Origin: Isosphaera sp.
GTDB lineage: Bacteria > Planctomycetota > Planctomycetia > Gemmatales > Gemmataceae
Assembly: GCA_013822345.1 (NCBI GenBank)
Contig: PNKH01000049.1
Coordinates: 1-53,121, forward strand
Direction: 5' to 3'
DNA length: 53,121 nucleotides
The notes under the pieces were generated by a model. That model saw only the letters and a list, made by a program, of their open reading frames with translations, was not told the DNA's origin and ran no database searches. Within the stretch, counting starts at the first letter, position 1, and each line of letters begins with the position of its first letter. Both the position numbers and the translations under genes were made by a program. This document shows, one piece after another, positions 27,238 to 46,395 of the stretch.

Positions 27238-27256
27238 TTGGCACGCGACGTGCAAA
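27238..27256 (+). promoter_or_regulatory. sigma-54-type promoter (DUF1328/YihY)
   Basis: TTGGCACGCGACGTGCAAA: GG at 27240-27241, exactly ten bases, GC at 27252-27253. It matches the -24/-12 consensus except G for T before TGC. The downstream ATG is 86 bp after the GC. Confidence 0.7.
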
Positions 27257-27338: not shown

Positions 27339-27515
27339 ATGCTCCGCTGGTCGCTGATCTTCCTGGTCGTCGCCCTGATCGCCGCCCTGTTCGGGTTCAA
27401 CGTGGTCGAGGGGTACTCGCTCCTGGCCGCCAAGATCACGTTCTTCGTGTTCCTGGTCCTGTTCGTGGTCTCCCTGCTGGTCGGGGACCGGGGGACGACC
27501 CGGGACGCGATCTGA
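27339..27515 (+). CDS. DUF1328 family small membrane protein
   Basis: 58 residues. MLRWSLIFLVVALIAALFGF followed by EGYSLLAAKITFFVFLVLFV is the DUF1328 (YtjA-type) pattern: two membrane helices with a short glycine-containing turn. Function is unknown, but members are often stress-linked and lie beside other small envelope genes. GGAGGG lies about 8 bp before the ATG. A sigma-54-type promoter is 86 bp upstream. A 12-bp stem hairpin follows, before the YihY gene. Confidence 0.9.
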   Translation: MLRWSLIFLVVALIAALFGFNVVEGYSLLAAKITFFVFLVLFVVSLLVGDRGTTRDAI

Positions 27516-27593: not shown

Positions 27594-28490
27594 ATGACGG
27601 TCCGAGACGCCTGGCCGCTGCTGAAGGACGCCGGGAACAAGTTCATCGACGACAAGGCCCCCCGGCTCGGGGCGGCCCTGGCGTTCTACACCGTCCTGTC
27701 GCTGTCCCCGCTGTTGCTGGTGTCGGTGGCGGTGGCCGGGCTGGTGTTCGGGGAGGAGGCCGCCAAGGGCGAGATCGTCGCGCAGCTCGGGGGGACGATC
27801 GGCGGGGAGGGGGCGGCGGTGGTCGAGCAGCTCGTCGCCAAGAGCGCGGCGACGACCGGGAAGGGGCTGATGGCCGGGGTCGGGTTCGCCGTCCTGTTCT
27901 TCGGGGCGTCCGGGGTGTTCGTCGAGCTCCAGGGGGCGCTGAACACCATCTGGCAGGTGCCCGGGAGGAAGTCCGGGGGCGGGATCCTGGCGCTCGTCCG
28001 GGAGCGGCTCCTGTCGTTCTCCCTGGTGTGCGTGATGATCTTCCTGCTCATCACCTCGCTGGTGGTCAGCGCCGCCCTGTCGGCGGTGAACGGGTACGTC
28101 GCCGGGTGGATGCCGGGGCTGGCGGTGCTCGCCCAGGTGCTGAACTTCCTGGTCACCTTCGCCTTCCTCACCCTGCTGTTCGCGGTCATCTACCAGTGGC
28201 TCCCGGAGACCGACCTGGCGTGGTCCGACGTGTGGGTCGGGGCGGCCGTCACCGCCGGGCTGTTCTCGGTCGGGAAGTACCTGATCGGGCTGTACCTGGG
28301 GACGGCCGCGGTCGGGTCGGCGTTCGGGGCGGCCGGGGCCCTGGTGGTGCTCCTGATGTGGGTGTACTACTCGACCCAGATCCTGCTGTTCGGGGCCGAG
28401 CTGACGTTCGTGTACGCCCAGAAGCACGGGTCCGGGCTGAACCCGCGCGAGGCCGCCGGCAGCCCGGCCGAGCCGTCCCCGGCGATCTGA
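27594..28490 (+). CDS. YihY/BrkB family membrane protein
   Basis: 298 residues. YihY/virulence factor BrkB pattern: DDKAPRLGAALAFYTVLSLS, then PLLLVSVAVAGLVFG, LMAGVGFAVLFFGASGVFVE, LQGALNTIWQVP, and the last conserved block GAAGALVVLLMWVYYSTQIL followed by LFGAELTFVYAQKHG. About six membrane helices are visible. The family was once mis-called RNase BN; it is an integral membrane protein of unclear, possibly transport-related function. It probably belongs to the DUF1328 transcription unit. A short hairpin (GGGTCCC/GGGACCC, 28543-28561) follows. Confidence 0.92.
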   Translation: MTVRDAWPLLKDAGNKFIDDKAPRLGAALAFYTVLSLSPLLLVSVAVAGLVFGEEAAKGEIVAQLGGTIGGEGAAVVEQLVAKSAATTGKGLMAGVGFAVLFFGASGVFVELQGALNTIWQVPGRKSGGGILALVRERLLSFSLVCVMIFLLITSLVVSAALSAVNGYVAGWMPGLAVLAQVLNFLVTFAFLTLLFAVIYQWLPETDLAWSDVWVGAAVTAGLFSVGKYLIGLYLGTAAVGSAFGAAGALVVLLMWVYYSTQILLFGAELTFVYAQKHGSGLNPREAAGSPAEPSPAI

Positions 28491-31270: not shown

Positions 31271-31289
31271 TTGGCACGCCCCGTGCATC
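31271..31289 (+). promoter_or_regulatory. sigma-54-type promoter (holin-X/DUF3618 operon)
   Basis: TTGGCACGCCCCGTGCATC: GG at 31273-31274, ten bases, GC at 31285-31286. The downstream ATG is 42 bp after the GC. Confidence 0.7.
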
Positions 31290-31327
31290 GCCTCGGGCGT
31301 GTCCGTGTCCTTCCGAGGATGGCGACC

Positions 31328-31756
31328 ATGACCGACACCGAAGCGCGTCCGGCGGACGCCCCACCCCCGACCCCGCCGGCCGTCGCCGGGACCGTGACCG
31401 GGCTGGTCAGCGGGATCGTGGACGACGCCCAGAAGCTGCTCGGCCAGCAGGTGCAGATGCTGAAGGCCGAGGTGAAGGAGGACTTCCGCCGGTCGAAGCG
31501 GGCGGCCGAGTTCGGGGCCGCCGGCATCGTCCTACTGACGGTCGGGTTCCTGGCCCTGGTGTTCGCCCTGGCGCACTTCCTCCACGAGAACCACCACTTC
31601 TCGATGTGGGCGTCGTTCGGGATCACCGCCCTGATCTTCCTGGGCGTCGGCGGGGCACTGGCCGTGACCAGCTACATCCTGCTCGAGCGGTTCAACCCGC
31701 TCCCGGACAAGACCATGGGGGCCCTCAAGGAGAACCTGACGTGGAAAACCAGCTAA
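31328..31756 (+). CDS. holin-X/YqjE-like (phage holin superfamily III) membrane protein
   Basis: 142 residues. An amphipathic N-terminal part (GLVSGIVDDAQKLLGQQVQM, LKAEVKEDFRRSKRAAEFGA) leads into two membrane helices (AGIVLLTVGFLALVFALAHF and ASFGITALIFLGVGGALAVT). This is the Actinobacterial Holin-X/YqjE arrangement; the name does not imply phage lysis. ATG 31328 was preferred over 31319 because GAGGA at 31315-31319 is then about 8 bp upstream. It overlaps the next gene by 16 bp, an arrangement like the E. coli yqjD-yqjE stress pair in reverse order. Confidence 0.85.
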   Translation: MTDTEARPADAPPPTPPAVAGTVTGLVSGIVDDAQKLLGQQVQMLKAEVKEDFRRSKRAAEFGAAGIVLLTVGFLALVFALAHFLHENHHFSMWASFGITALIFLGVGGALAVTSYILLERFNPLPDKTMGALKENLTWKTS

Positions 31757-32397
31757 CCCCGCCGGACGACAAGACCCCGGAGCAGATCGAGGCCGAGATG
31801 GCCTCCACCCGGGAGTCGATGACGGAGAAGATCGCGGCCCTGGAGAACAAGGTGGTCGGGACCGTCGAGACGGCCGCCGACACCCTGTCCGGGACGGTCA
31901 ACTCGGTCAAGAGCCTGATCTCCGACGCCCCCGGGGCGGTCGGGGACGCGGTCAAGAAGGCGGCGACCGCGGTCCGGGAGGCGTTCGACATCCCCGGCCA
32001 CGTCCGGAGCCACCCGTGGGCGGCGATGGGGGTGTCGGCCGGGCTCGGGTTCCTGACCGGGGTGTTGGTGTTCCGCGGCCGCGGGTCGCTCGGGTACTCG
32101 ACCGCGGTCGCCCGCCCGGCCTACGCCGGGGCCCCGACGGCGACGAGTCACGCCCCCGCCCCGGAGCCGGCCGCCCCGTCCCGCCCCGGCATGTTCGGGG
32201 AGCTGTTCGCGATGGTCGGGCGGAAGCTGCGGGAGGTCGCCGAGCAGGCGATCGACTCGGCGTCGCAGGCGGTCAACCAGAACGTCCGGGACGGGGTGCC
32301 GAAGCTGGTGGACGCGGCCGCCGACCGGCTGACCCCCGGCGCCGCGGCGGCCGGCGGCCGGTTCCGGTACGGGGACGGGTCCGACTACACCGGGTGA
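31741..32397 (+). CDS. DUF3618/YqjD-like membrane-anchored protein
   Basis: 218 residues with GTG start at 31741, overlapping the holin-X gene by 16 bp. The N terminus (TPEQIEAEMASTRESMTEKI, then AALENKVVGTV) is the DUF3618 heptad-like start. A single glycine-rich membrane segment after HPWAAMGVSAGLGFLTGVLV recalls the ElaB/YqjD anchor, which in E. coli binds ribosomes at the inner membrane in stationary phase. A proline/alanine linker and an amphipathic tail (AEQAIDSASQAVNQNVRDGV) follow. Role here is inferred as envelope stress only. Confidence 0.82.
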   Translation: MENQLTPPDDKTPEQIEAEMASTRESMTEKIAALENKVVGTVETAADTLSGTVNSVKSLISDAPGAVGDAVKKAATAVREAFDIPGHVRSHPWAAMGVSAGLGFLTGVLVFRGRGSLGYSTAVARPAYAGAPTATSHAPAPEPAAPSRPGMFGELFAMVGRKLREVAEQAIDSASQAVNQNVRDGVPKLVDAAADRLTPGAAAAGGRFRYGDGSDYTG

Positions 32398-32801: not shown

Positions 32802-33620
32802 ATGGACTGGCAACCCTGGCTCCGCCCGGCGGCCGAGGACCCGGCCGCCCGCCCGGCCACCGCGGCCGACGCCCTCGCCCGCCTGGCGGACGGGAACCGG
32901 CGGTTCCGGGCCGACGCGGCGGCGTGCGGGGGCGTCGTCCCGGGGGCGACCGCCCCGCCCCGGCAGGCCCCGTTCGGGGTCGTCCTCGGGTGCTCCGACG
33001 CCCGGGTCCCGTTGGAACTCGTCTTCGACGCCGCCCCGAACCAGCTGTTCGTCGTCCGGGTCGCCGGGAACGTCCTCGGGGACGAGTGCCTGGGGAGCGT
33101 CGAGTACGCCCTGCACAGCTTCCGGGAGTCGGTCCGGCTGGTGGTGGTGCTCGGGCACACCGGGTGCGGGGCGGTGGCCGCCGCCGTCGACACCTACCTG
33201 AGCCCGAAGCACGCCGCCGGGATCGCGTTCAGCCGGTCCCTGCGGACCGTGGTGAACCACATCCTGGTGGCCGCCCGCAGCGCCGCCCTGTCGCTCGAGC
33301 AGGTCCACGGGACCGACGTGCTGGAGGACCCGAACTACCGGGCGGCGCTGGCCGAGCTGACCGTCCCGCTGAACGCGGCGGTCACCGCGTACCAGTTGTC
33401 GGTCGAGTTGGGGACCCGCGAGGCCGGCGGGCCGGCGGTCGCCTACGGGGTGTTCGACCTCCTGTCCGCGACCGTCGCCGGCCCGCCGGACCTCGCGGCG
33501 GTCGGCCTGTCGGCGGCCCCGACCGCCCCGGAAGACCTCGTCGACCTCGGGGTCCGGCTGGCCGGCTCTCCGCTGGTCACCCGGCACCTCCACCTGATCC
33601 CCGGCCCGTTCTCCGAGTAG
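32802..33620 (+). CDS. beta-class carbonic anhydrase
   Basis: 272 residues. Zinc ligands and catalytic pair are all visible: C64-SDAR with D66 and R68 (VVLGCSDARVPLELVFD), and H119-T-G-C122-G (VVVLGHTGCGAVAAAVD). NQLFVVRVAGNVLGDECLGS is the conserved core. It interconverts CO2 and bicarbonate in the cytoplasm. The C-terminal part (about 205-272) extends beyond the minimal domain. Next to a bestrophin-family channel gene, it suggests a bicarbonate/anion handling pair. Its TAG stop lies inside the left arm of the palindrome at 33617. Confidence 0.94.
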   Translation: MDWQPWLRPAAEDPAARPATAADALARLADGNRRFRADAAACGGVVPGATAPPRQAPFGVVLGCSDARVPLELVFDAAPNQLFVVRVAGNVLGDECLGSVEYALHSFRESVRLVVVLGHTGCGAVAAAVDTYLSPKHAAGIAFSRSLRTVVNHILVAARSAALSLEQVHGTDVLEDPNYRAALAELTVPLNAAVTAYQLSVELGTREAGGPAVAYGVFDLLSATVAGPPDLAAVGLSAAPTAPEDLVDLGVRLAGSPLVTRHLHLIPGPFSE

Positions 33621-33708
33621 GGTGGGCCGAGCCGGCGCCTCGCCGGCGAGTCCCACCAGTAGGCGGTGGTGGGACTCGCCGGCGAGGCGCCGGCTCGGCC
33701 CACCCTAC
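33617..33708. repeat. long palindrome with GTAGGGTG ends
   Basis: Perfect 42-bp arms (33617-33658, 33667-33708) with an 8-bp loop, overlapping the carbonic anhydrase stop codon. The ends GTAGGGTG...CACCCTAC are shared with the palindrome at 47083-47172, while the inner sequences differ. Confidence 0.95.
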
Positions 33709-33751
33709 GACCACTTCCCGGTCACGTGACGGCGGGCTCGCCCGCCGCTAT

Positions 33752-34579
33752 ATGACCTGCATGCCCGAGCAAACCCTCCGCAGCGTCCGCCGCGCGTTCC
33801 GGTTCCCGGTCCTGGGCCGGCTGTGGAAGTTCCTGGCCGCGGTCGCCGCCTACTCCGCCCTGGTCGTGCTGTTCGGCGGGTGGGTGATGCCGGACGGCCC
33901 GCCCCGGGACCGGTCGGACGAGGCGATCCTGGCCGGCATCCTGTTCGGCTGGCTCCTGAGCTTCCGCACCCAGACCGCCTACGCCCGGTGGTGGGAGGGC
34001 CGCAGCCTCTGGGGCCAGCTCGTCAACGAGACCCGCAACCTCGTCCTGAAGGCGGCCGCGTACGTCCCGGACCCGGCCGGGCGGGACAAGCTCGGGGCGG
34101 CGCTGGTGCGGTTCGCGGAGGTGCTGCGGGACCGCCTCCGCGGCCCGAAGCGGGCCGCCGGGCCGCACCTGCCGATGGCCGCCGCCGGGGAGGTGTTCGG
34201 GATGATCCGCGGGTGGCACCAGGCCGGGACGGTCGACGGGTTCGCGTTCCTGGCCCTCGACCAGCACGCCCGCGGGCTGATGGACGTGTGCGGGGCGTGC
34301 GAGAAGATCCGGGCGACCCCGCTGGCCGCGTCGTACCGCGGGCTGCTCCGCAAGGGGATCACCGCCTACCTGCTGCTGCTGCCGTGGATGGTGAACGACG
34401 ACCTGGGGTGGCTGACCGTGCCGGTGGCGATCCTGGTCTGCTACGCGGTCGTCGGGCTGGAGCTGATCGCGACCGGGATCGAGGACCCGTTCGGGTACGA
34501 CGGGGACGACCTGCCGCTGGAGCAGATCGTCGAGACGATCAAGGCGGCGGTGGTGTCCGGGGCGGGCGTCGGGGCGTAA
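33752..34579 (+). CDS. bestrophin family (YneE/UPF0187) anion channel
   Basis: About 275 residues. Bestrophin features: FLAAVAAYSALVVLFGGWVM (helix 1), AGILFGWLLSFRTQTAYARW with WWEGRSLWGQLVNETRNLVL, GITAYLLLLPWMVNDDLGWL, VAILVCYAVVGLELIATGIE and DPFGYDGDDLPLEQIVETI, the calcium/regulatory-type acidic end. It likely forms a pentameric anion (bicarbonate or chloride) channel in the inner membrane. Starts at 33752 and 33761 are both possible; neither has a clear ribosome-binding sequence. It follows the carbonic anhydrase gene after a palindrome, supporting a shared role in bicarbonate handling. Confidence 0.87.
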   Translation: MTCMPEQTLRSVRRAFRFPVLGRLWKFLAAVAAYSALVVLFGGWVMPDGPPRDRSDEAILAGILFGWLLSFRTQTAYARWWEGRSLWGQLVNETRNLVLKAAAYVPDPAGRDKLGAALVRFAEVLRDRLRGPKRAAGPHLPMAAAGEVFGMIRGWHQAGTVDGFAFLALDQHARGLMDVCGACEKIRATPLAASYRGLLRKGITAYLLLLPWMVNDDLGWLTVPVAILVCYAVVGLELIATGIEDPFGYDGDDLPLEQIVETIKAAVVSGAGVGA

Positions 34580-34633: not shown

Positions 34634-36076
34634 TCACTCCTTCTTGAACTCTTCCTTCTTGATGTCGTAGTGGGCGATCTTGTCGGTGATGCTGCGGCGG
34701 GACAGGCCGCTGATCTCGGCGCACTTGCCGACGTGCCCGCGGGTCTTCCGCAGGGCCTTCCGCAGGTACCGCTTCTCGAACGCGGCGGTGATCTCGGCCA
34801 ACTGGTCCGGGAGGTGACGGGACAGGTCCACCTGGAACGGGTGCGGCTTCCCGCCGGCCCGCCGGCCGACGTCCCGGGGCAGGTTCTTCGGGGCGATCAC
34901 CCCGTCCCGGGCCAGGGCGCAGGCCATCTCGATCGCGTTCTCCAGCTGCCGCACGTTCCCCGGCCACGGGCACTTCAGCAGCACGTCCATCGCCTCCGGG
35001 GTCGGGGCCGGCGGGGCCTGGCCGGGGCGGGCGAACTTCTGGCAGAAGTGGCTCACCAGCACCGGGATGTCCTCCGGCCGGTCCCGCAGCGGCGGGATGT
35101 CGATCCGGACCACGTTCAGGCGGTAGTACAGGTCCTCCCGGAACTTCCCGTCCTTGACCAGCTTCTCCATGTCCTGGTGGGTGGCGGCGATCACCCGGAC
35201 GTCGATCTCGATCGGGTCGGACCCGCCGACCCGCTCGAACCGCCGCTCCTGGAGCACCCGCAGCAGCCGGATCTGCATCGACATCGGGACGTCCCCGATC
35301 TCGTCGAGGAACAGGGTCCCGCCGTGGGCCAGCTCGAACCGCCCGACCCGCTTCCGGTCGGCCCCGGTGTACGACCCCTTCTCGTGCCCGAACAGCTCGC
35401 TCTCCAGCAGGTTCTCGTTCAGCGCCCCGCAGTTGACGGCCACGAACGGCCCGGCCCGGTGGGTGGCCGACGTCTGGTGGATGGCCCGGGCCACCTGCTC
35501 CTTGCCGGTCCCGGTCTCGCCGCGGATGAGCACCGTGCTGGTGGTGTCGGCGATCTGCCCGACCAGCTCGAACACGTCGTGCATCCGCGGGCTCTTCGAG
35601 AGCACGTTCTGGAACGCGTGCTGGCCGCCCAACTGCTTCCGCAGGGCCAGCACCTCGTCCTGCAGGGCCCGGTTCTGGAGGGCCCGCTTGACCAACAGGC
35701 ACAGGTGCTTCGGGTCGGCCGGCTTGGTCAGGAAGTCGTAGGCGCCCATCCGCATCGCCTCGACCGCGTCCTCGATCCGCCCGTTCCCGGTGGTGACGAT
35801 GACGGTGACCGGGAGCTTCTCGGCGACCACCGCCTCGATCAGCTTCATCCCGGACACCTTCGGCATCCGCAGGTCGGTGATGACCAGGCTGTACGGCCGG
35901 GCCCGGAGCAGCTCCAGACCCTTGGCCCCGTCCTCGGCCGTGTCCACCTCGAGCCCGAGGCTCACGCGGATCAGCTCCTGGAGGGAGTCGCGCTGGTCCT
36001 CCTGGTCCTCGACCACGAGAACCCGCTGGACCGGTCCGGCTGGCACCGGATGTGCAACAGGGGGGTGGTTGGGCAT
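34634..36076 (-). CDS. NtrC-family sigma-54-dependent response regulator
   Basis: 480 residues. Receiver domain 1-130 with phospho-acceptor D68 ([17 protein letters not shown]) and [21 protein letters not shown]118. AAA+ domain about 155-390: Walker A GETGTGKE (187-193), Walker [12 protein letters not shown] (252-262). The sigma-54 contact loop reads GSYTGA (234-239) instead of GAFTGA. A Fis-type helix-turn-helix ends the chain ([20 protein letters not shown]). It activates sigma-54 promoters after phosphorylation. It is divergent from the giant kinase gene (222 bp apart), its likely partner, and is flanked by genes with sigma-54-type promoters. Confidence 0.95.
36040..36058 (+). promoter_or_regulatory. 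possible sigma-54-type promoter of the giant kinase
   Basis: CTGGCACCGGATGTGCAAC: GG at 36042-36043, ten bases, GC at 36054-36055, pointing to the kinase ATG 244 bp away. It lies inside the start of the divergent activator gene, so chance is harder to exclude than at the other sites. Confidence 0.5.
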
Positions 36077-36298: not shown

Positions 36299-39200
36299 AT
36301 GATCGAGTTCGCGGCCCGGCTGTTCGACACGTCCGGGTTCGTCCCCCGGGCGGAATGCGGGCAGTGGACCCCGGGCCTGGTCGGCCTCCACCTCGTCAGC
36401 GACTTCCTCATCTGGGTCGCGTACGTCTCCATCCCGATCGTGCTGCTGGCGTTCGCCCGCCGCCGCGACCTGCCGTACCCCCGGCTGTTCATCCTGTTCG
36501 CCGCCTTCATCCTGGCGTGTGGGACGGTCCACCTCGTCGAGGCGGTCATCTTCTTCCGCCCGGTGTACCGGCTGTCCGGGGTGGTCAAGGCGGTGACCGC
36601 GGTCGTCTCCCTGTGGACGGTGGCCGCCCTGATCCCGGTGGTCCGCCGGCTGTTCGCGGTCGAGCAGGGGAAGTTGATGGCCGCCCTGGACCAGATCCGG
36701 GGCGGGGGGTTCGGGGAGCGCGGGGTGTCCGGGTGGGTGACGGTCGCCTGGGGGGTGGCCGCGGTCGGGGTGGTGACGAGCGTCGCCGTCTCCAGCTACC
36801 ACACCAACGCCCTGATCCACAACGACGCCCGGGAGACCCGGACCCGGGAGGTGAAGGCCGAGGTGAGCGGCCTGTTGTCCGACCTGAAGGACCTGGAGAC
36901 CGGGTACCGGGGGTTCCAGATCACCGGCCGGGAGGACTTCCTGGACCCGTACCACCGGGCGGCCGAGTCCGTCCGGGACCGGCTCGCGAAGCTGGACGGG
37001 CTGCTGGCCGACGACCCGGAGCAGGCGGCCGACTACGCCGAGCTGAAGGGGCTGGCGGCCCGCAAGTTCGACGACGTGACCCGGGGGATCGAGGTCCACC
37101 GCCGGGACGGGAAGGAGGCCGGCCAGGCGGAGGTGCTGAAGGCCACCGGGAAGGCGATCATGGACGACGCCCGGGCGGCGGCCGCCCGGGTGGACGGGCG
37201 GGAGGACGCCCGGCTGACCGGGCAGCGGGAGGCGGCCCGGGACACGTTCGCGGCCACCACCGCGAACAACCTGGTCGGGGGCGGGCTGGCCCTCGGGATG
37301 CTGCTGCTCGGGTACGGGCTGATCCGGTGGGAGTTCGGACGGCGCCTCAAGGCCGAGACCGCCCTGTCCCTGCGGGAGGAGGAGTTGCGGGTCATCACCG
37401 ACGCCGTCCCGGCCCTGATCTCGTACGTCGGGGCGGACGGGCGGTACCGGTTCGTCAACCGCCAGTACGAGGTGTGGTTCGGCACCCCCCGCGAGCAGGT
37501 GGTCGGGCGGCACCTGCGGGAGGTCGTCGGGGACGAGACGTACGCCGCGCTGCGGCCGAACGTCGAGCGGGTGCTGGCCGGGGAGCGGTTCGAGTTCGAG
37601 ACGTTCGCCCCGTACAAGGACGGCGGGGGCCGGCACGTCCACGTCGACTACGTCCCGCGGTTCGACGGCGGGCGGGTGGTCGGGTACTTCGCCCTGGTCG
37701 CCGACATGTCCGAGCGGAAGCGGGCGGAGGAGGCCTTGCGGCGGAGCGAGGCGACGCTCCGGGCGTTCTACGACAGCTCCCCGCTGTGCATGGGGGTGGT
37801 CGAGCCGCTCCCGGGCGACGTCCGGCACGTGTACGACAACCGGGCCAGCTGCCGGTTCTTCGGGGTCGAGCCGGAGCAGACGGCCGGGAAGCGGGCGACC
37901 GAGCTCGGCACCCCGCCGGAGGTGCTCGCCCGGTGGCTCGGGAAGTACCGGGACAGCGCCGCCCGCGGCGGCCCGGTCCGGTTCGAGTACGACTACCCCG
38001 GGGCGGACGGCCGGCGGTGGCTGTCGGCGACCGTCGCCCCGCTGGACGCGGCCGCCGACCGGTTCTGCTACCTGGCCGAGGACGTGACCGACCGGAAGCG
38101 GGCGGAGGAGGCGGTCCGGGAGAGCGAGGAGCGGCTCCGGGCGGTGTTCGACCAGGCCACCGCCGGGGTGGCCGAGACCGACCTGACCGGCCGGTTCGTC
38201 CGGGTCAACGCCCGGTACGCCGAGATCGTCGGGCGGCCGGCCGCCGACCTGTACGCCCTGCGGATGCAGGACCTGACCCACCCGGACGACCTGCCGGGGA
38301 ACGCCCGCCGGTTCGCCGCCCTGGTGGCCGGGACCGGCCCGCCGTTCGTGGTCGAGAAGCGGTACCTCCGGCCGGACGGGTCGGCGGTGTGGGTGAGCAA
38401 CAGCGTGTCCCTGGTCCGGGACGCGGCCGGGGCCCCGCGGACGGTGGTCGCGGTCAGCCAGGACGTGACCGCCCGGCGGCGGGCGGAGGAGGAGCTGCGG
38501 GAGAGCGAGCGGCGGTTCCGGGAGACGGCGGACGCGGCCCCGGCCATGCTGTGGGTGACCGACCCGGCCGGGGCGTGCACGTTCCTGTCCCGCGGGTGGT
38601 ACGAGTACACCGGGCAGACGGAGGCGGACGCCCTCGGGCTGGGGTGGACCGACGCCACCCACCCGGCCGACCGGGCCGAGGCCGGCCGCGTCGTCCTGGC
38701 CGCCAACGCCCGCCGGGAGGAGTTCCGGTTCGAGTACCGGCTCCGCGGGCCGGGCGGGGCGTACCGGTGGGCCCTGGACGCCGGCCGCCCGCGGTACTCC
38801 CCGGCCGGGGAGTACCTGGGGATGGTCGGGGTGGTGATCGAGATCGACGACCGGAAGCGGGCCGAGGAGGCCCTGCGGGCGAACGAGGAGCGGTACCGGA
38901 CGCTGACCGAGGCGATCCCGCAGGTCGTCTGGAACGCCGGGCCGGACGGGGGGGTCACCTACCTGAACCGCCGGTGGCGGGAGTACACCGGGTTGCAGTT
39001 CGACCGGGCTGCCGGCCGCGGGTGGCTGGCCGCCGTCCACCCGGCCGACCGGGACGGGGTGCTGGCGGACTGGCAGGAGACGGCCGACCAGGCGGCCGCC
39101 GGGTCGGCCGACCGGTTCTCCCGCGAGCTGCGGCTCCGCCGGGCCGGGACCGACGAGCACCGGTGGTTCCTGACCGTGGCCGTCCCGCTCCGCCACCCGG

Positions 39201-42184
39201 ACGGGTCGGTCGACCAGTGGATCGGGTCGATGGCCGACATCCACGACCAGAGGACGGCGGCCGAGCGGGTGGCCGAGTCGGAGCGGTTCCTGGCGGCCAC
39301 CATCAACGCCCTGACCAAGCACCTCGCGGTGCTGGACGAGGCCGGGACGATCCTCCGGGTGAACGAGGCGTGGCGGCGGTTCGGGGAGGCGAACGGGCTG
39401 GCCGGCGGGGCCGGCGCGGTCGGGACCGACTACCTGGCGGCGTGCGAGGTGCCGTGCCCGGGGGGCGACGGGGCGTCGTTCTCCGACGCCATCCGGGCGG
39501 TCATCCGGGGCGACCGGCAGACGTTCGCGGTCGACTACCCGTGCCACTCCCCGGCCGAGCGGCGGTGGTTCCAGATGCGGGTCAGCCGGTTCCCCGGGGT
39601 CGGCCCGGTCCGGGTGGTGGTGACGCACGACGACATCACCGCCCGGGTGCTGGCCGAGGAGGCGACCCGGGAGAGCGAGGCCAAGTTCCGGTTCCTCGAC
39701 GCCCTCGGGCAGGCCACCCGGGAGGCCGACCCGGGCGAGGTGATGGCGGTCACCGCCCGGATGCTCGGGGAGCACCTCGGGGCCACCCGGTGCGCGTACG
39801 CCGAGGTCGACCCGGACGCCGACCGGTTCCACATCCGGCACGACTGGACGGACGGGGCCGCGACCACCGTCGGGGCGCACTCCCTGGACGCGTTCGGCCC
39901 GCGGGCGGCGGCCGACATGCGGGCCGGGCGGGTGCTGGTGGTCCGGGACGTGGGCCGGGAGCTGGCCCCGGCCGGCGGGGCGGGCGCGTTCGCCGCCATC
40001 GGGATCGGGGCGATCGTCTGCTGCCCGCTGGTCAAGGGCGGGCGGCTGACGGCGATGATGGCCGTCCACCAGGCCGGCCCCCGGGACTGGACCGCGGCCG
40101 AGGTCGGGCTGGTCCGGGAGGTGTGCGAGCGGTCGTGGGCGCACATCGAGTTGCAGCGGTCCGAGGCGGCGGCGGCCGAGACCGAGGACAAGTTCCGGCT
40201 GATGACCGACTCGATCCCGCAGCTCGCCTGGATGGCCCACGGGGACGGGCACATCTTCTGGTACAACCGGCGGTGGTACGAGTACACCGGCTCCACCCCG
40301 GCGGAGATGGAGGGGTGGGGCTGGGAGAAGGTCCACGACCCGGCGGTGCTGCCGGCGGTGAACGAGCGGTGGCGGGCCAGCCTGGAGACCGGCGAGCCGT
40401 TCGACATGACCTTCCCGCTGAAGGGGGCGGACGGCCGGTTCCGCCCGTTCCTCACCCGGGTGGTCCCGACCCGGGGGGCGTCCGGGAAGGTGGTCCGGTG
40501 GTTCGGGACGAACACCGACGTGACCGACCAGCGGGAGCTGGAGCAGGCCCTGCGGGACGCCGCCGGGCGGTTCCGCACCCTGACCGAGGCCGTCCCGCAG
40601 CTGGTGTGGACGGCCGACCCGCGGGGCGAGCCGACGTTCTTCAACCGCCGCTGGCACGAGCACACCGGCCTGCCACTGACCCCCGGGGAGGCCGAGCACT
40701 GGATCAGCGCGGTCCACCCGGACGACATCGACCGGTTCCGGGCCGAGTGGCAGCTGGCGGTGGCCGGCCGGCCGGACCGGTTCACCAGCGAGTTCCGCCT
40801 CCGCCGGGCGGCCGACGGGGCGTACCGGTGGATGCTGTCGACCGCCGTCCCGCTCCGGGACGAGGCCGGGGCGGTGGCCGAGTGGGTCGGGAGCATCACC
40901 GACATCGACGACCAGAAGCGGTACGCCGAGGTGCTCGAGGACGTGGTCCGGAAGCGGACCGCGGCCCTGGCCGAGGAGGTCGAGGAGCGGACCCGGGCGG
41001 AGGCCGAGGTGCGGGAGCAGCGGGGGTTCCTGGACGCCATCCTGGCGAACGTCGCCGACGGGATCGTGGCGTGCGACGCGGCCGGCACCCTGACCCTGTT
41101 CAACCAGGCGTGCCGGGAGTTCCACGGGCTGCCGGCCGAGCCCCTCCCCCCGGACCGGTGGGCCGACCGGTACTCGCTGCTCCGGGCCGGCGGGGGCGCC
41201 CCGCTCGCCCCGGACGAGATCCCGCTGGCCCGGGCCCTGGCCGGGGAGCGGGTCCGGGACTTCGAGTTCGTCATCGCCCCGGCCGGGCTGCCGCGGCGGA
41301 CCGTCCTGGCCAGCGGCCAGCCGCTGGTCGCCGACGACGGGCGGCAGCTCGGGGCGGTGGTGTCGATGCGGGACGTGACGGCGATGAAGGAGGCCGAGCG
41401 GAAGCTCAAGGAGGCGAACGCCGAGCTGGTCCGGAGCAACGCCGAGCTGGAGCAGTTCGCCTACGTCGCCAGCCACGACCTGCAGGAGCCGCTCCGGAAG
41501 ATCCAGGCGTTCGGGGACCGGCTGACCACCAAGTTCCGGGCCGCCGTCCCGGACGGGGCGAAGGAGTACGTCGACCGGATGCAGACCTCGGCCGGGCGGA
41601 TGCAGCGGCTGATCAACGACCTGCTGAACTACTCCCGGGTGACCACCACCGCCCGCCCGTTCTCCCGGCTGAACCTGACCCGGCTGGTCCGGGAGGTGGT
41701 GTCCGACCTGAGCGTGCGGATCGAGGCGACCGGGGCGGACGTGCGCGTCGGGGAACTCCCGGACATCGAGGCCGACCCGACCCAGATGCGCCAGTTGTTC
41801 CAGAACCTGATCGCGAACGCGGTAAAATTCCACCGGCCGGGCGTGCCCCCGGTGGTCGAGGTATCCGGGGCGTGGGTGATCGACCCGCCGCCCGCCGGCC
41901 CGGCCGCCGACCCCGCCCCGGTGTGCCGGATCGCCGTCCGGGACAACGGGATCGGGTTCGACGAGAAGTACCTGGACCGGATCTTCCAGGTGTTCCAGCG
42001 GCTGCACGGCCGGGACGAGTACGACGGGACCGGGGTCGGGCTGGCCGTCTGCCGGAAGATCGCCGAGCGGCACGGCGGGTCGATCACCGCCCACAGCCGG
42101 CCGGGGGACGGGGCGACGTTCGTCGTCACCCTCCCGGCCCGGCAGGTCCCGCCACCCTTAACCCCGCCCCCGGGGACCGGCTGA
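36299..42184 (+). CDS. giant sensor kinase: ethylene-receptor-like, CHASE3, nine PAS, GAF
   Basis: 1961 residues. Residues 25-125 hold three membrane helices like plant/cyanobacterial ethylene receptors: D35 and Y42 in SDFLIWVAYVSIP, then I71, C74 and H78 in FILACGTVHL, with ETR1 spacing. Next: a CHASE3 domain (about 165-320, DLKDLETGYRGFQITGREDF) between two helices; six PAS domains (about 358-1120); GAF (about 1124-1295); three more PAS (about 1295-1695); HisKA with H1726 (YVASHDLQEPLRKIQAFGDR); and HATPase (NLIANAVKF, DNGIGFDE, GTGVGLAV). It has no receiver of its own. The phytochrome-like HisKA and the Rcp1-type receiver gene 40 bp downstream suggest one output; the divergent NtrC-type gene is another. 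Confidence 0.9.
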   Translation: MIEFAARLFDTSGFVPRAECGQWTPGLVGLHLVSDFLIWVAYVSIPIVLLAFARRRDLPYPRLFILFAAFILACGTVHLVEAVIFFRPVYRLSGVVKAVTAVVSLWTVAALIPVVRRLFAVEQGKLMAALDQIRGGGFGERGVSGWVTVAWGVAAVGVVTSVAVSSYHTNALIHNDARETRTREVKAEVSGLLSDLKDLETGYRGFQITGREDFLDPYHRAAESVRDRLAKLDGLLADDPEQAADYAELKGLAARKFDDVTRGIEVHRRDGKEAGQAEVLKATGKAIMDDARAAAARVDGREDARLTGQREAARDTFAATTANNLVGGGLALGMLLLGYGLIRWEFGRRLKAETALSLREEELRVITDAVPALISYVGADGRYRFVNRQYEVWFGTPREQVVGRHLREVVGDETYAALRPNVERVLAGERFEFETFAPYKDGGGRHVHVDYVPRFDGGRVVGYFALVADMSERKRAEEALRRSEATLRAFYDSSPLCMGVVEPLPGDVRHVYDNRASCRFFGVEPEQTAGKRATELGTPPEVLARWLGKYRDSAARGGPVRFEYDYPGADGRRWLSATVAPLDAAADRFCYLAEDVTDRKRAEEAVRESEERLRAVFDQATAGVAETDLTGRFVRVNARYAEIVGRPAADLYALRMQDLTHPDDLPGNARRFAALVAGTGPPFVVEKRYLRPDGSAVWVSNSVSLVRDAAGAPRTVVAVSQDVTARRRAEEELRESERRFRETADAAPAMLWVTDPAGACTFLSRGWYEYTGQTEADALGLGWTDATHPADRAEAGRVVLAANARREEFRFEYRLRGPGGAYRWALDAGRPRYSPAGEYLGMVGVVIEIDDRKRAEEALRANEERYRTLTEAIPQVVWNAGPDGGVTYLNRRWREYTGLQFDRAAGRGWLAAVHPADRDGVLADWQETADQAAAGSADRFSRELRLRRAGTDEHRWFLTVAVPLRHPDGSVDQWIGSMADIHDQRTAAERVAESERFLAATINALTKHLAVLDEAGTILRVNEAWRRFGEANGLAGGAGAVGTDYLAACEVPCPGGDGASFSDAIRAVIRGDRQTFAVDYPCHSPAERRWFQMRVSRFPGVGPVRVVVTHDDITARVLAEEATRESEAKFRFLDALGQATREADPGEVMAVTARMLGEHLGATRCAYAEVDPDADRFHIRHDWTDGAATTVGAHSLDAFGPRAAADMRAGRVLVVRDVGRELAPAGGAGAFAAIGIGAIVCCPLVKGGRLTAMMAVHQAGPRDWTAAEVGLVREVCERSWAHIELQRSEAAAAETEDKFRLMTDSIPQLAWMAHGDGHIFWYNRRWYEYTGSTPAEMEGWGWEKVHDPAVLPAVNERWRASLETGEPFDMTFPLKGADGRFRPFLTRVVPTRGASGKVVRWFGTNTDVTDQRELEQALRDAAGRFRTLTEAVPQLVWTADPRGEPTFFNRRWHEHTGLPLTPGEAEHWISAVHPDDIDRFRAEWQLAVAGRPDRFTSEFRLRRAADGAYRWMLSTAVPLRDEAGAVAEWVGSITDIDDQKRYAEVLEDVVRKRTAALAEEVEERTRAEAEVREQRGFLDAILANVADGIVACDAAGTLTLFNQACREFHGLPAEPLPPDRWADRYSLLRAGGGAPLAPDEIPLARALAGERVRDFEFVIAPAGLPRRTVLASGQPLVADDGRQLGAVVSMRDVTAMKEAERKLKEANAELVRSNAELEQFAYVASHDLQEPLRKIQAFGDRLTTKFRAAVPDGAKEYVDRMQTSAGRMQRLINDLLNYSRVTTTARPFSRLNLTRLVREVVSDLSVRIEATGADVRVGELPDIEADPTQMRQLFQNLIANAVKFHRPGVPPVVEVSGAWVIDPPPAGPAADPAPVCRIAVRDNGIGFDEKYLDRIFQVFQRLHGRDEYDGTGVGLAVCRKIAERHGGSITAHSRPGDGATFVVTLPARQVPPPLTPPPGTG

Positions 42185-42224: not shown

Positions 42225-42701
42225 ATGCCGGACCACCCGAAGAAGCCCGTCACCATCCTGATGGCGGACGACGACCCGGACGACCGCCAGCTGACGCGGG
42301 AGGCGTTCGAGGAGAACCACCTGGCGAACGACCTCCGGTTCGTCGAGGACGGGGAGGAGTTGCTCGACTACCTGAACCACCGGGGGAAGTACGCCGACCC
42401 GGCGGCCGCCCCGCGGCCGGGGATCATCCTGCTCGACCTGAACATGCCCCGGAAGGACGGCCGGGAGGCCCTGCAGGAGCTGAAGCAGGACCCCCGGTTC
42501 CGCGGCATCCGGGTGGTCATCATGACCACCTCCAAGGCCGAGGAGGACGTGGTCAGGAGCTACGACCTGTCGGCCGCGTCGTACATCACCAAGCCGGTGA
42601 CGTTCGAGCGGCTGGTGGAGGTGGTGCGGACGCTCGGGAAGTACTGGCTGGAGATCGTGGAGCTACCCCCCAATGGAAACGGAACCGGCCCCGCCCCCTG
42701 A
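42225..42701 (+). CDS. Rcp1-type single-domain response regulator
   Basis: 158 residues. A lone receiver domain: acidic pocket ADDDPDD (14-20), phospho-acceptor D71 in GIILLDLNMPRKDGREAL, T/S in MTTSKAEEDV, and lysine in SYITKPVTFERLVEVV. The long insert around NHRGKYADPAAAPRP is typical of Rcp1, the partner of cyanobacterial phytochrome kinases. It has no DNA-binding part, so it probably passes phosphate on or controls by contact. It lies 40 bp after the giant kinase gene and overlaps the next kinase gene by 29 bp. Confidence 0.93.
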   Translation: MPDHPKKPVTILMADDDPDDRQLTREAFEENHLANDLRFVEDGEELLDYLNHRGKYADPAAAPRPGIILLDLNMPRKDGREALQELKQDPRFRGIRVVIMTTSKAEEDVVRSYDLSAASYITKPVTFERLVEVVRTLGKYWLEIVELPPNGNGTGPAP

Positions 42702-43959
42702 CCCGGCCGCCGACACCCCCCCGCCGGCGGGCAACGGCCCCCCGCCCGTCCGCGTCCTCCTGATCGACGACGACCGGGACGACTACTTCCTGACCCAGGA
42801 CCTGATCGCCGACGCCCCGCGCGGGCGGTACACCCTGGACTGGGCGCCGACCTACGCCGAGGGGCTGGACGCCCTGTGCGGCGGGACCCACGACGCGTAC
42901 CTGCTGGACTACCGGCTCGGGGCCCGGACCGGGATCGAGCTGCTGCGGGAGGCGGCCGGGCGGGGGTACGCCGGGCCGGTCATCGTGCTCACCGGGCAGG
43001 GGCAGAGCAAGACCGACCTGGAGGCCCTGGACGCCGGGGCGTACGACTACCTGGAGAAGGGGCCGGGCCTGACCCCGGCCCTGCTGGAGCGGGCCATCCG
43101 GTACGCCATCGCCCAGCGGGCGTCGGCCGCCGAGCTGGAGCGGAAGGTGCGGGAGCGGACCGACGAGCTGGCCCGGGCGAACGAGGCGCTGCTGCTGGCC
43201 GACCGCCGCAAGGACGAGTTCCTGTCGACCCTCGGGCACGAGCTCCGCAACCCGCTCGCCCCGATCCTGAACGGGCTGGAGATCATGCGGCTGGCCCCCG
43301 ACGACGCGGGGTCGGTGGCCCGCCAGCGGGAGCGGCTGGAGCGGCAGGTGGCCCAGATGGTCCGGCTGGTCGACGACCTCTTGGACGTGTCCCGGGTGGT
43401 GACCGGGAAGCTCCGGCTGGCCCCCGACACGGTCACCCTCCGGGACGTGCTGGACGCCGCCCTGGACCTGAGCCGGCCGCACCTGGAGAAGGCCCGGCTG
43501 GACCTGGCCGTCGACCTGCCGGCCGGCCCGGTCCGGCTGAAGGCCGACCGGGTCCGGCTCGCCCAGGTGTTCTCCAACCTGCTGAACAACGCGGCCAAGT
43601 ACACCGAGCCGGGCGGGCGGGTGTCGCTGACGGCGGACCTCGGGGCGGCGGCCGGGGCGGGCGGGCCGGTCGCCGACTCGGCCCTCCAGCCGGCGCTCGG
43701 GGCGCTGACGGCCGGGGTGGTGCGGGTGCGGGTCCGGGACACCGGGGTCGGGATCCCGGCGGACGTGCTGCCGCACATCTTCGAGCTGTTCACCCAGGTG
43801 GACCGGACGCTGAACCGGTCGCAGGGCGGGCTCGGGGTCGGCCTGGCCCTGGTCCGCCGGCTGGTCGAGATGCACGGCGGGACGGTGTCGGCCCGGAGCG
43901 GCGGGCCCGGGACCGGGACCGAGTTCACCGTCGAGCTGCCGGTGCTCCAACCCGAGTAG
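42673..43959 (+). CDS. receiver-histidine kinase (hybrid)
   Basis: 428 residues. An N-terminal receiver (about 25-145; D33, phospho-acceptor D79 in DAYLLDYRLGARTG, K129 in DYLEKG) is joined by a short coiled coil (RKVRERTDELARANEALLLA) to HisKA with H189 (FLSTLGHELRNPLAPILNGL) and HATPase (NLLNNAAKYTEPGG, DTGVGIPADVLPHIFELF, GLGVGLALVRRLVEMHGG). No sensor domain and no membrane segment: it seems to be a soluble phospho-relay part that receives its input through its receiver. The 29-bp overlap with the Rcp1-type gene indicates tight co-expression. Confidence 0.93.
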   Translation: METEPAPPPDPAADTPPPAGNGPPPVRVLLIDDDRDDYFLTQDLIADAPRGRYTLDWAPTYAEGLDALCGGTHDAYLLDYRLGARTGIELLREAAGRGYAGPVIVLTGQGQSKTDLEALDAGAYDYLEKGPGLTPALLERAIRYAIAQRASAAELERKVRERTDELARANEALLLADRRKDEFLSTLGHELRNPLAPILNGLEIMRLAPDDAGSVARQRERLERQVAQMVRLVDDLLDVSRVVTGKLRLAPDTVTLRDVLDAALDLSRPHLEKARLDLAVDLPAGPVRLKADRVRLAQVFSNLLNNAAKYTEPGGRVSLTADLGAAAGAGGPVADSALQPALGALTAGVVRVRVRDTGVGIPADVLPHIFELFTQVDRTLNRSQGGLGVGLALVRRLVEMHGGTVSARSGGPGTGTEFTVELPVLQPE

Positions 43960-44004: not shown

Positions 44005-44058
44005 ACCCGGTCCGGCGCACTGCACTTCCCGCGCCGCGGCACCCGTTTGCCGCCCGGA

Positions 44059-44077
44059 ACGGCACCCCGGTTGCTCA
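44059..44077 (+). promoter_or_regulatory. sigma-54-type promoter (AI-2E permease)
   Basis: ACGGCACCCCGGTTGCTCA: GG at 44061-44062, ten bases, GC at 44073-44074, with the full TTGC of the -12 element. The downstream ATG is 44 bp after the GC. Confidence 0.7.
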
Positions 44078-44117: not shown

Positions 44118-45935
44118 ATGCCCAACGACTGGCAGCGGTCGCTCGTCACCCTGACCGCCACGGTGGTGACCGTGGTCCTGGTGGCCGTCCTGTACTGGGC
44201 CCGGTCGGTGTTCATCCCGATCGCCCTGTCGATCTTCCTGGCCTTCGTGCTCGGCCCGGTGGTCGCCCGGCTGCAGCGGCGCGGGCTCGGCCGGGTCCCG
44301 TCGGTGATCCTGACGGTCGGGCTGGCGGTGGTGCTGACGGCCGGGGTCGCGGCCCTGGTCACCCAGCAGGTGGCGAACCTCGTGGCCGACCTGCCGAACT
44401 ACGCGGAGCAGATCAAGGGGAAGGTGGCCGCCGCCCGGGCGTGGGTGGTCGGGGACGGGAGCAGCAGGCTGGGGCAACTGATCGACGACGTGGGCGGGGT
44501 CATCTCGCCGAAGCCGCCGGCCCGGGACGACGGGCAGACGGTCGTGGTCCAGCAGCAGCCGCCCGGGCCGCTCTCGTCCCAGATGTCGGCGGTCCTCAGC
44601 CCGGCGGCCGAGGTCCTCGGGCAGGCGGCGTTCGCGTTCGTCCTGGTGGTGTTCTTCCTGATCAAGAAGGAGGACCTGCGGAACCGGGTGATCCGGCTGC
44701 TCGGGGACGGGAAGGTGACGACCACCACCAAGGCGGTGGACGACGCGTCCCAGCGGATCAGCCGGTACCTGTTCATGCAGCTGCTGCTGAACGCCGGGTT
44801 CGGGGTGGTGATCACCACCGGCCTGTTCCTGGTCGGGCTGGACTACGCCCTGCTGTGGGGGCTGATCGCCGCCCTGATGCGGTACGTCCCGTACCTGGGG
44901 ACGTGGATCGGGCTGATCCCGCCGGTCCTGTACTCGTTCGCCACCGCCTCCGGGTGGGGCGAGCCGCTGGCCGTGCTGGCCCTGTTCGTCGTCCTGGAGG
45001 CGGTCTGCAACAACGTGTTCGAGCCGTGGCTGTACGGCAAGAGCATGGGCCTGTCCGAGGTGGCCCAGCTGGTGGCGGCCGGGTTCTGGGCGTTCCTGTG
45101 GGGGCCGATCGGGCTGATCCTGTCCGGCCCGCTGACCACCTGCCTGCTGGTCCTCGGCCGGCACGTCCGCCGGTTCGAGTTCCTGGAGGTGATGCTCGGG
45201 GACGAGCCGGCCCTGACCCGCCCGGTGGCGTTCTACCAGCGGCTCGCCGCCCGAGACCAGGACGAGGCGGCGGACGTGGCCCTGGCGGCGGCGAGGGAGT
45301 CCGGGCCGGAGGCGGCCCTGGACGAGGTGGTCGTCCCGGCCCTGTGCATCGCCCGCCGGGACCTGGACGACGGGGACCTGGACCCGAACGACTTCCGGTT
45401 CGCCGTCCGGGCGGCCCGGGAGATCGTGACCGAGCTGTCCGACCTCCGCCCGGTCCCGGCCGCGGCGGCCGACGACCGGGTGCGGGTGCTGGTCGTCCCG
45501 GCCCGGGACGAGGCCGAGCACGTGGCGGCCGAGGCCCTGGCGGCGACCCTGGACGTGTCCCGGTGGGACGTCCGGGTCGCGGGGGACGAGATGCTGGCGT
45601 CCGAGCTGGCGGCGGCGGTCGGGGAGTTCGACCCGGCGGTGGTGGTGCTGGCCACCCTCCCCCCGGGCGGGCTGGCCCACTCCCGGTACCTGGTCAACCG
45701 GCTGCGGGCGAAGTGCCCCGGGGTCCACGTCCTGGTCGGGCGGTGGGGGGCCGACGACGAGGGGAAGCCGAACGAGCCGGCGGAGGGGATCAAGGGGGCG
45801 GACGGGACCGACCGGACCCCGGCGGAGACCCGGAAGCGGCTGACCGAGATGCACCCGGTGTTCGTCGCCGAGGCGGCGAAGGATGGGAGGGCCGGTGGGC
45901 CGCGGCGGGTGGCGGTTGGCACGGCAGGTGCATGA
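44118..45935 (+). CDS. AI-2E family permease with C-terminal soluble domain
   Basis: 605 residues. The first about 370 residues are an AI-2E/PerM-type permease: SLVTLTATVVTVVLVAVLYW, SVFIPIALSIFLAFVLGPVV, the cytoplasmic/periplasmic helical loop, then VALIAALMR-like ALLWGLIAALMRYVPYLGTW, IGLIPPVLYSFATASGW, GPIGLILSGPLTTCLLVLGR; eight helices are plausible. The last about 230 residues are soluble, with RVRVLVVPARDEAEHVAAEA and FDPAVVVLATLPPGGLAHSR, resembling a cobalamin-binding/Rossmann-like fold but without the D-x-H-x-x-G cobalt ligand. Family members export small molecules or ions; the fused domain may be regulatory. Start ATG 44118 gives the first helix directly. Confidence 0.85.
   Translation: MPNDWQRSLVTLTATVVTVVLVAVLYWARSVFIPIALSIFLAFVLGPVVARLQRRGLGRVPSVILTVGLAVVLTAGVAALVTQQVANLVADLPNYAEQIKGKVAAARAWVVGDGSSRLGQLIDDVGGVISPKPPARDDGQTVVVQQQPPGPLSSQMSAVLSPAAEVLGQAAFAFVLVVFFLIKKEDLRNRVIRLLGDGKVTTTTKAVDDASQRISRYLFMQLLLNAGFGVVITTGLFLVGLDYALLWGLIAALMRYVPYLGTWIGLIPPVLYSFATASGWGEPLAVLALFVVLEAVCNNVFEPWLYGKSMGLSEVAQLVAAGFWAFLWGPIGLILSGPLTTCLLVLGRHVRRFEFLEVMLGDEPALTRPVAFYQRLAARDQDEAADVALAAARESGPEAALDEVVVPALCIARRDLDDGDLDPNDFRFAVRAAREIVTELSDLRPVPAAAADDRVRVLVVPARDEAEHVAAEALAATLDVSRWDVRVAGDEMLASELAAAVGEFDPAVVVLATLPPGGLAHSRYLVNRLRAKCPGVHVLVGRWGADDEGKPNEPAEGIKGADGTDRTPAETRKRLTEMHPVFVAEAAKDGRAGGPRRVAVGTAGA
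45916..45934 (+). promoter_or_regulatory. sigma-54-type promoter (LEA/YqjD-like gene)
   Basis: TTGGCACGGCAGGTGCATG: GG at 45918-45919, ten bases, GC at 45930-45931. It overlaps the last codons of the permease gene and is 54 bp before the next ATG. Confidence 0.68.
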
Positions 45936-45984: not shown

Positions 45985-46395
45985 ATGGCCGATACGACCA
46001 AGGGCCAGGTGAAGAGCGGGATCGACAACGCGGCCGGCGCGGCCAAGACCGGGGTGGACCGGGCGGCGGACGCGGCCAACACCGGCAAGCAGGAGGCCCA
46101 CGGGCTGATGGACCGGGTGAAGGACGGGGCCCAGCACGTCCTGGACAAGGCCGGGGACTACGCCGGGGACGTCCGCGACCGGGCCGGGGAGTGGGCCGGG
46201 GACGTGGGGGACGCGGCCCGGCAGGCCGGGCAGAAGGTGCAGCGGTGGGCCGGGGACGCGTACGACTACGCGTCCGAGCACGCCGGCGACTTCGGCCGGG
46301 AGGTCACCACCCTGATCCGCCGGCACCCGCTCCCGGCCGTCCTGATCGGGTTCGGGGTCGGGCTGCTGCTCGGCCGCGCCGCCCGGATGGTGTGA
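45985..46395 (+). CDS. LEA-like protein with YqjD-type membrane anchor
   Basis: 136 residues, ATG 45985 with ACGGAGGGG upstream. The first about 110 residues are a hydrophilic, alanine/glycine/aspartate-rich series of roughly 11-residue repeats (AAGAAKTGVDRAADAANTGK, DKAGDYAGDVRDRAGEWAGD), as in late-embryogenesis-abundant and related desiccation proteins. The C terminus (RRHPLPAVLIGFGVGLLLGR) is the ElaB/YqjD-type glycine-zipper membrane anchor. I infer a stress-protective protein bound to the inner membrane. It has its own sigma-54-type promoter and is followed by a strong hairpin. Confidence 0.8.
   Translation: MADTTKGQVKSGIDNAAGAAKTGVDRAADAANTGKQEAHGLMDRVKDGAQHVLDKAGDYAGDVRDRAGEWAGDVGDAARQAGQKVQRWAGDAYDYASEHAGDFGREVTTLIRRHPLPAVLIGFGVGLLLGRAARMV

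Follow-up and report, generated by a model that had tools for sequence, protein, structure and literature searches.

An ethylene-receptor-type sensor kinase in a conserved sigma-54 gene block of the Gemmatales

Introduction

What could an ethylene-receptor-type sensor kinase do in a planctomycete, and which genes might it address? Ethylene-receptor-type kinases are common in bacteria; for very few of them (cyanobacteria, Azospirillum) has, to our knowledge, an output been described. The question is raised by a stretch of 53,121 nucleotides from Isosphaera sp. (family Gemmataceae), the whole of which is here called the window, and in which a multi-sensor histidine kinase is encoded next to an NtrC-type sigma-54 activator. 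The occurrence of such kinases in bacteria is known already; what is new is the genomic setting of this one. Its probable output is legible from the genome, as a small set of membrane and transport genes marked out by promoter elements beside a dedicated sigma-54 activator. Natural knock-outs are provided by close relatives that share the block and whose ETR1 domain is missing or lacks copper ligands, and the role of bacterial ethylene receptors beyond plants and light becomes testable with a defined read-out.

ETR1-type domain and layout of the kinase

The kinase reading frame (36299..42184, + strand; ATG start, 1961 aa) contains ETR1_N, CHASE3, nine PAS, GAF, HisKA and HATPase_c domains. Its N-terminus (residues 1-127; 36299..36680, + strand) is a genuine ETR1-type (ethylene-binding) transmembrane domain with an intact putative copper/ethylene site, as recognized from a Pfam profile, an AlphaFold2 model and the ETR1 positions. 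The profile match (PF25487, ETR1_N) covers residues 27-120 with 110.3 bits (E 5.8e-32; cut-off 27) and agrees with an earlier, sequence-only reading of this DNA, in which the kinase was predicted to begin with an ethylene-receptor-like copper-binding domain. Chance resemblance of a few residues was also considered, and is ruled out by this score.

The key residues of the kinase are D35, Y42, I45, P46, I71, C74, H78, K97 and S104. Compared with ETR1, D25, Y32, I35, P36, I62, C65, H69, K91, T94 and S98 are all identical in the window domain (10/10), with the putative ligands C74 and H78 corresponding to the Cu(I) ligands C65 and H69. The earlier pairing of D35/Y42/P46 with D25/Y32/P36, and of I71/C74/H78 with I62/C65/H69, was exact in its numbers. 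The spacing inside each triplet equals that of ETR1 (7,4 and 3,4), and from one triplet to the other the kinase has a gap of 25 residues, vs 26 in ETR1. In ETR1, D25, Y32, I35, P36 and I62 are needed for ethylene binding. These non-ligand residues are 5/5 identical in the window, and their need for ethylene binding finds partial support in the available text of PMC6586836 and PMC11819568.

The ligands are conserved beyond the window. In an alignment of 68 loci, window included, which holds mostly better-scoring loci so that the count favours the domain, C65, H69 and S98 (ETR1 numbering) were found in 68/68, Y32 in 67, I35 in 66, I62 in 65, K91 in 64, and D25 and P36 in 63 each. The Cys/His conservation among orthologues on which the sequence-only reading depended was observed in every one of these loci. 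The alignment takes in 30 of the 32 phylum-sample matches (among them the window), 29 of the 50 other matches from the order or genus, and 9/9 from the contig scan; the broken or divergent rows L024, L025 and L030 were retained, and L037 equals L061 in sequence. Weaker matches outside the 68 loci, namely L089, L098 (Y32 to F), L101 (divergent) and L102, have kept both Cys and His.

An AlphaFold2 model of the domain (input plus 29 aligned relatives; mean pLDDT 95.9, pTM 0.80) predicts a short helix at residues 2-9 and three long helices at 25-53, 61-84 and 90-134, consistent with the three-helix arrangement expected earlier. Neither a PDB sequence match nor a Foldseek match at E<=0.001 was found that would give a solved structure for comparison, and a high-resolution structure of the ETR1 membrane domain is lacking according to the accessible part of PMC13012798. 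EPR distances of that membrane domain are described in the same text as agreeing better with an ab initio than with an AlphaFold model, for which reason the predicted fold carries little weight by itself. The first loop of the domain carries 3 K/R vs 1 D/E, and these charges would fit an orientation with the N-terminus outside and the kinase inside. Before the first long helix, an R/H-x-x-C-x-x-W stretch is found at residues 17-23 (36347-36367); many relatives have one, and its Cys is absent in some members of the genus (L048, L049, L052, L055). This stretch may be a substitute for the disulfide cysteines of ETR1, or may provide an extra ligand.

The CHASE3 domain (residues 178-310; 36830..37228, + strand; PF05227, 101.6 bits) is predicted to be extracytoplasmic, and by hydropathy it is bracketed by TM-like segments near residues 147-165 and 324-342. 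The GAF domain (PF01590) occupies residues 1144-1278 (39728..40132, + strand), and the kinase core consists of HisKA (1717-1782) and HATPase_c (1826-1948) as assigned by Pfam (41447..42142, + strand); CHASE3, GAF, HisKA and HATPase_c all lie above the Pfam cut-offs. PAS repeats start at about 355 (by eye), 482, 608, 735, 861, 993, 1294, 1421 and 1572; profiles gave eight PAS_4 stretches with Pfam and seven with TIGR00229. The CHASE3, nine PAS and GAF domains named in the sequence-only reading are accordingly recovered, CHASE3 and GAF by Pfam and the nine PAS by our own count.

Distribution of the domain

How unusual is such a domain in planctomycetes? In itself, the ETR1-type domain is nothing out of the ordinary for the class: a search with our own alignment gave matches at E<=0.001 in 132 of the 397 class genomes sampled, and the notion of a planctomycete rarity has to be dropped. 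The domain was found in 25/246 genomes of the phylum sample, in 35 of the 102 genomes of the order and in 13 of the 19 of the genus; these figures come from whole-genome searches, and the contig scan yielded only nine relatives. The window genome has a single ETR1-type domain; among named relatives, a Gemmataceae bacterium is the closest. Wide occurrence in the class would also suit a domain that binds some other small ligand at the copper, be it another olefin, CO, sulfide, NO or a redox signal; we consider this quite unlikely, as against it the set of ethylene-binding residues of ETR1 is complete in the window.

In the literature searched, no paper on ETR1-type domains in planctomycetes was found among the matches listed, and an earlier mention may exist. 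The matches listed for Gemmata and ethylene contained nothing fitting, no paper on an ethylene receptor joined to CHASE3 was found in the literature searched, and the search for sigma-54 regulons in planctomycetes gave unrelated papers only.

Conserved gene block around the kinase

In the Gemmatales, the kinase lies in a block with the order divergent sigma-54 activator, kinase, receiver-only regulator, receiver-kinase, AI-2E-type transporter and small helical protein. The NtrC-type activator of the window (34634..36076, - strand) is divergent from the kinase and contains receiver, Sigma54_activat and HTH_8 domains. Its adjacency to the kinase, already pointed out in the sequence-only reading, stands; the description of the neighbourhood has to be corrected in that the activator belongs to a conserved block and its likely targets can be read from promoter elements. 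In another 40 genomes of the order, the best matches of the activator show 56-84% identity (E<=1e-150), and 68-84% was observed across the block stretches compared. Its loop reads GSYTGA, not GAFTGA, in 11 tree rows of the window's genus; elsewhere, GAYTGA occurs in L100, and GSFTGA (most) or GAFTGA in the others. Genes for a carbonic anhydrase (PF00484) and a bacterial bestrophin (PF25539) lie side by side at 32802-34579 and adjoin the activator.

The kinase gene is followed by that of a receiver-only response regulator (42225..42701, + strand; PF00072), which we take to be Rcp1-like. Another 29 genomes of the order have best matches to it with 57-90% identity (E<=1e-45), and it is the probable direct phosphoacceptor of the kinase. 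The gene is overlapped by that of a second kinase with receiver, HisKA and HATPase_c domains (42673..43959, + strand; Pfam), which is 51-68% identical in the block stretches. An AI-2E-family transporter with a C-terminal extension (44118..45935, + strand; PF01594, 158.9 bits) comes next, and then a small helical protein (45985..46395, + strand), whose C-terminus is hydrophobic by eye and which has no above-cut-off Pfam family. On the other side of the activator, the window encodes a Phage_holin_3_6-type membrane protein (31319..31756, + strand; Pfam), a DUF883_C reading frame of unsure start that overlaps it (31606-32397), a DUF1328 small membrane protein (27339..27515, + strand; PF07043, 40.8 bits) and, after the latter, a BrkB-type protein (27594-28490).

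Within the genus, each of the 13 domain-bearing genomes also has a close relative of the activator (E<=1e-150), as do 0/6 others, with the match partial in G270 and the block cut by contig ends in G262 and G264. Around ETR1-type domains outside the order, the block was absent from 22/22 stretches; the best activator there is 42% identical (L126) and the best receiver-only regulator 41%. A remote resemblance is seen in L127 and L141, where the domain, a kinase core (37%) and a receiver-only gene (41% and 34%) follow one another as in the block, with no activator.

Is the activator the partner of the kinase? In L096 and L100 the activator and transporter genes are present and no such kinase was found between them by tblastn, so the kinase of the activator is unproven. 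The activator might answer to other kinases, with the ethylene-type kinase and the promoter cluster being neighbours that have no direct link, and the downstream receiver-only regulator is indeed the more obvious partner of the kinase. Set against this are the co-occurrence in the genus (13/13 vs 0/6) and the conserved divergent order of activator and kinase, and we regard independence of the two as somewhat unlikely.

Sigma-54 elements

The window genome has one RpoN gene. A scan of the window for sigma-54 sites gave 16, vs 16.5 by chance and without excess, and the evidence for the -24/-12 elements described here is their conservation and position. Three canonical elements were found on the + strand, namely TTGGCACGCGACGTGCA (27238..27254), after which the DUF1328 gene is the first and which also stands before the same small gene in L060, TTGGCACGCCCCGTGCA (31271..31287), 32 nt before the ATG at 31319 of the holin-like gene, and TTGGCACGGCAGGTGCA (45916..45932), 53 nt before the ATG at 45985 of the gene for the helical protein. 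A weaker, sigma-54-like GGCAC-N5-TTGC (44061-44074, + strand) lies 43 nt before the AI-2E gene. Directly upstream of it is a near-palindrome, GGCACCCGTTTGCC (GGCAMCNNKTTGCC-like; 44038-44051, + strand; joint span 44038..44074), which could be an activator or a repressor site; the tandem form occurs upstream of 11/19 AI-2E orthologues and once in the window's own genome. The products behind the elements are the DUF1328 protein (then BrkB), the holin-like protein with the DUF883-like frame, the helical protein and the AI-2E transporter.

Orthologous upstream regions were compared, and as these loci are related to each other the counts are non-independent trials. Strict GGCA[CT]-N5-TTGC was found within 150 nt of the AI-2E gene in 17/19 orthologues (missing in L080 and L093) and in 0.16% of shuffles. 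Among the controls, it was found before the receiver-kinase in 0/31, the receiver-only gene in 2/34, the activator in 0/31, the kinase in 0/27, glgB in 0/5, brkB in 0/5, the gene at 30603 in 1/7 and the start at 45883 in 0/17. The two receiver-only matches (L084, L088) were discounted, being inside the kinase coding sequence, at the GTGIGLA box. The start codon at 45883 was replaced by the ATG at 45985. With a -12 part that was relaxed after the sequences had been seen, and that raises some controls too, the element is present before the 45985 gene in 21/21 (strict 17), the AI-2E gene in 17/20 and the holin-like gene in 6/7 (strict 4). The relaxed controls are 1/29 for the activator, 4/33 for the receiver-only gene, 0/31 for the receiver-kinase, 0/5 for glgB, 2/6 for brkB, 1/7 for 30603, 0/2 for the carbonic anhydrase and 0-1% for shuffles; upstream of the kinase, the relaxed element was found in only 4/28 loci, which is counted against the explanation preferred below. 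The GG-N10-GC elements before the AI-2E, 45985 and holin-like genes can be described as conserved predicted sigma-54 promoters. In L079 and L116, a canonical sigma-54 site was observed before the ETR1-type kinase gene itself, and its placement suggests autoregulation of the kinase in these two loci.

In the 7.47-Mb window genome, the canonical TTGGCACGN5TGCA was found at three places, all on the + strand of the window (27238, 31271, 45916); the pattern was written after these sites had been seen, and the genome scan tests only their absence elsewhere. In 12 block-bearing genomes, 23/57 canonical sites are no more than 20 kb away from the activator, vs about 0.26 expected if evenly spread, and 18/52 do so when G000 (the window genome) and G254, which is nearly identical to G255, are left out. 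Confinement to the block region is true of the window genome only. Three genomes of the genus that have no block contain 2, 6 and 4 canonical sites, and hence the sites also serve other activators.

The genes behind the elements resemble membrane functions, which would also suit a sensor of membrane Cu(I), or of its redox state, that activates envelope-protection genes and does not respond to ethylene. The copper ligands are kept in 68/68 loci, and the genome is rich in copper-type ATPases (model TIGR01511 is above cut-off at seven places in G000, on several contigs, an eighth row being a fragment of one of these). The non-ligand residues for ethylene binding (D, Y, I, P, I) are nevertheless also kept, and Pfam shows no copper-resistance family among the genes adjoining the elements; a pure copper sensor is judged unlikely.

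Exchangeable sensor part of the kinase

Does the block require the ETR1-type domain? The kinase slot was read in the window, L060 and L069-L120, with Pfam for 18 proteins and the window and otherwise with models made from those Pfam segments; some genomes with activator or regulator matches were left out of the tally (e.g. G277, G279, G292, G295, G335, G338). An ETR1 domain with CHASE3 was found in 4 genomes (G000, G260, G263, G267) and one with DUF4118 in 12 (G254, G255, G256, G257, G262, G269, G270, G271, G289, G291, G332, G337); the sensor frame stops before the kinase core in G271 and G254 (L073, L075) and at the contig end in G262. In further cases the ETR1 domain is cut by a contig end (G336), has no second domain that could be found (G272) or is a search locus only (G264). 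CHASE3 alone was found in 5 genomes (G252, G253, G316, G296, G299), DUF4118 alone in 3 (G290, G333, G334) and a decayed ETR1 domain with DUF4118 in 2, with C to V, H to V, Y to C and P to S in G251, and Y to C and C to I, H being kept, in G339. Some of these blocks are incomplete: in G337 and G272 the kinase was seen beside the receiver-only regulator and the activator was not seen, L090 (G333) and L095 (G296) gave no receiver-only match, the kinase and activator of G299 are on different contigs, and a contig end interrupts the slot of G334.

The block can do without the ETR1 domain, as relatives have CHASE3 or DUF4118 only, or an ETR1 domain from which ligands have been lost. Because eight genomes have the block, whole or partial, without the domain, ethylene or copper cannot be the obligatory signal of the block. 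Promoter elements are also present in genomes without the domain (e.g. L093, L096, L100). In a tree of the activator (n=29), the domain-bearing G291 is sister to G290, which lacks the domain (support 100/100), the domain-bearing G332 is sister to G334, which also lacks it (100/99), and the rows with ETR1 and CHASE3 form a single group of four (99/97). L090 and L092 retain, by eye, an N-terminal stretch resembling that before the ETR1 domain, which favours loss; on this tree, whose root is a midpoint only, the domain was probably lost more than once while the block was kept, the reverse being less probable.

Such absence or decay in relatives that keep the block is what might be expected of a domain that is mainly a membrane anchor or dimerisation unit, with no ligand role and with the signal carried by CHASE3 and the PAS and GAF domains. 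An anchor would not need the ligands that are invariant in the 68 aligned loci, including the window, and both block copies that have lost C65 have also lost Y32; this explanation is distinctly improbable.

Proposed mechanism

The reading that we prefer, with a probability of roughly 55%, is that the kinase feeds a Cu(I)/ethylene-type input into an envelope-stress or transport module driven by sigma-54. Cu(I) would be held via C74 and H78 in the first three transmembrane helices, where ethylene or a similar small olefin would bind, and D35 and K97 would couple ligand binding to signalling in the manner proposed for ETR1 and AzoEtr1. Such coupling of aspartate and lysine is proposed for both receptors in the available part of PMC11819568, and a conserved aspartate and lysine are mentioned in that of PMC13012798. 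CHASE3 may bring an outside signal, and the nine PAS domains and GAF inside signals, to one and the same kinase core. This core most likely phosphorylates the downstream receiver-only regulator, with the receiver-kinase as a second tier; by an alternative route, phosphate could reach the activator through the receiver-kinase. The NtrC-type activator would then open the sigma-54 promoters of the AI-2E-type transporter and the small membrane-protein genes, and the local regulon (DUF1328, holin-like/DUF883-like, helical protein and AI-2E transporter) might serve in envelope stress or transport. In plants, the activity of ETR1 falls on ethylene binding according to the accessible text of PMC7700396, a sign that the response of the window kinase may or may not share; the available parts of PMC11819568 and PMC6682694 describe bacterial relatives that respond to ethylene.

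A wider proposal can be made tentatively, at somewhat less than even odds: in the Gemmataceae, a gas receptor of the plant-hormone type would be plugged, as an input, into a self-contained sigma-54 regulon for envelope stress, with the block as a socket that takes the ETR1 domain, CHASE3 and DUF4118 by exchange or by stacking. The stack of ETR1 domain and CHASE3 in the window's clade would then join gas and surface signals in one kinase.

Comparison with known systems

What distinguishes the window kinase from ethylene receptors and sigma-54 activators already described? Like Arabidopsis ETR1, it has a predicted N-terminal three-helix Cu(I)/ethylene domain, matched at 10 positions of the ETR1 sequence, and a histidine kinase further on. 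Unlike ETR1, it has a longer N-terminal stretch with a CG-W motif, adds CHASE3 and nine PAS domains to one GAF, and is without the C-terminal receiver that ETR1 has, with regulator genes adjoining instead. It resembles SynEtr1 (Slr1212) and GeiEtr1/2 of Geitlerinema, bacterial ethylene-receptor-type kinases with PAS/GAF arrays, and differs from them in its CHASE3 domain, none being mentioned for those kinases in the available part of PMC6682694. Slr1212 putatively signals to Slr1213 (PMC7700396, in the text available), whereas the window kinase sits in a sigma-54 block. In AzoEtr1 of Azospirillum brasilense, described as a functional receptor that affects biofilm formation, D35, C75, H79 and K98 correspond to D35, C74, H78 and K97 here; unlike the window kinase, AzoEtr1 is a protein of 525 aa with one PAS and a kinase, and no such block is described for it in the accessible portion of PMC11819568, the source of this comparison. 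The activator, for its part, is like those of the NtrC family in combining receiver, AAA+ and HTH_8 domains and in having GG-N10-GC elements nearby, and departs from the norm of that family in its divergent pairing with an ethylene-receptor-type kinase and, in the window's genus, in the sequence GSYTGA for GAFTGA.
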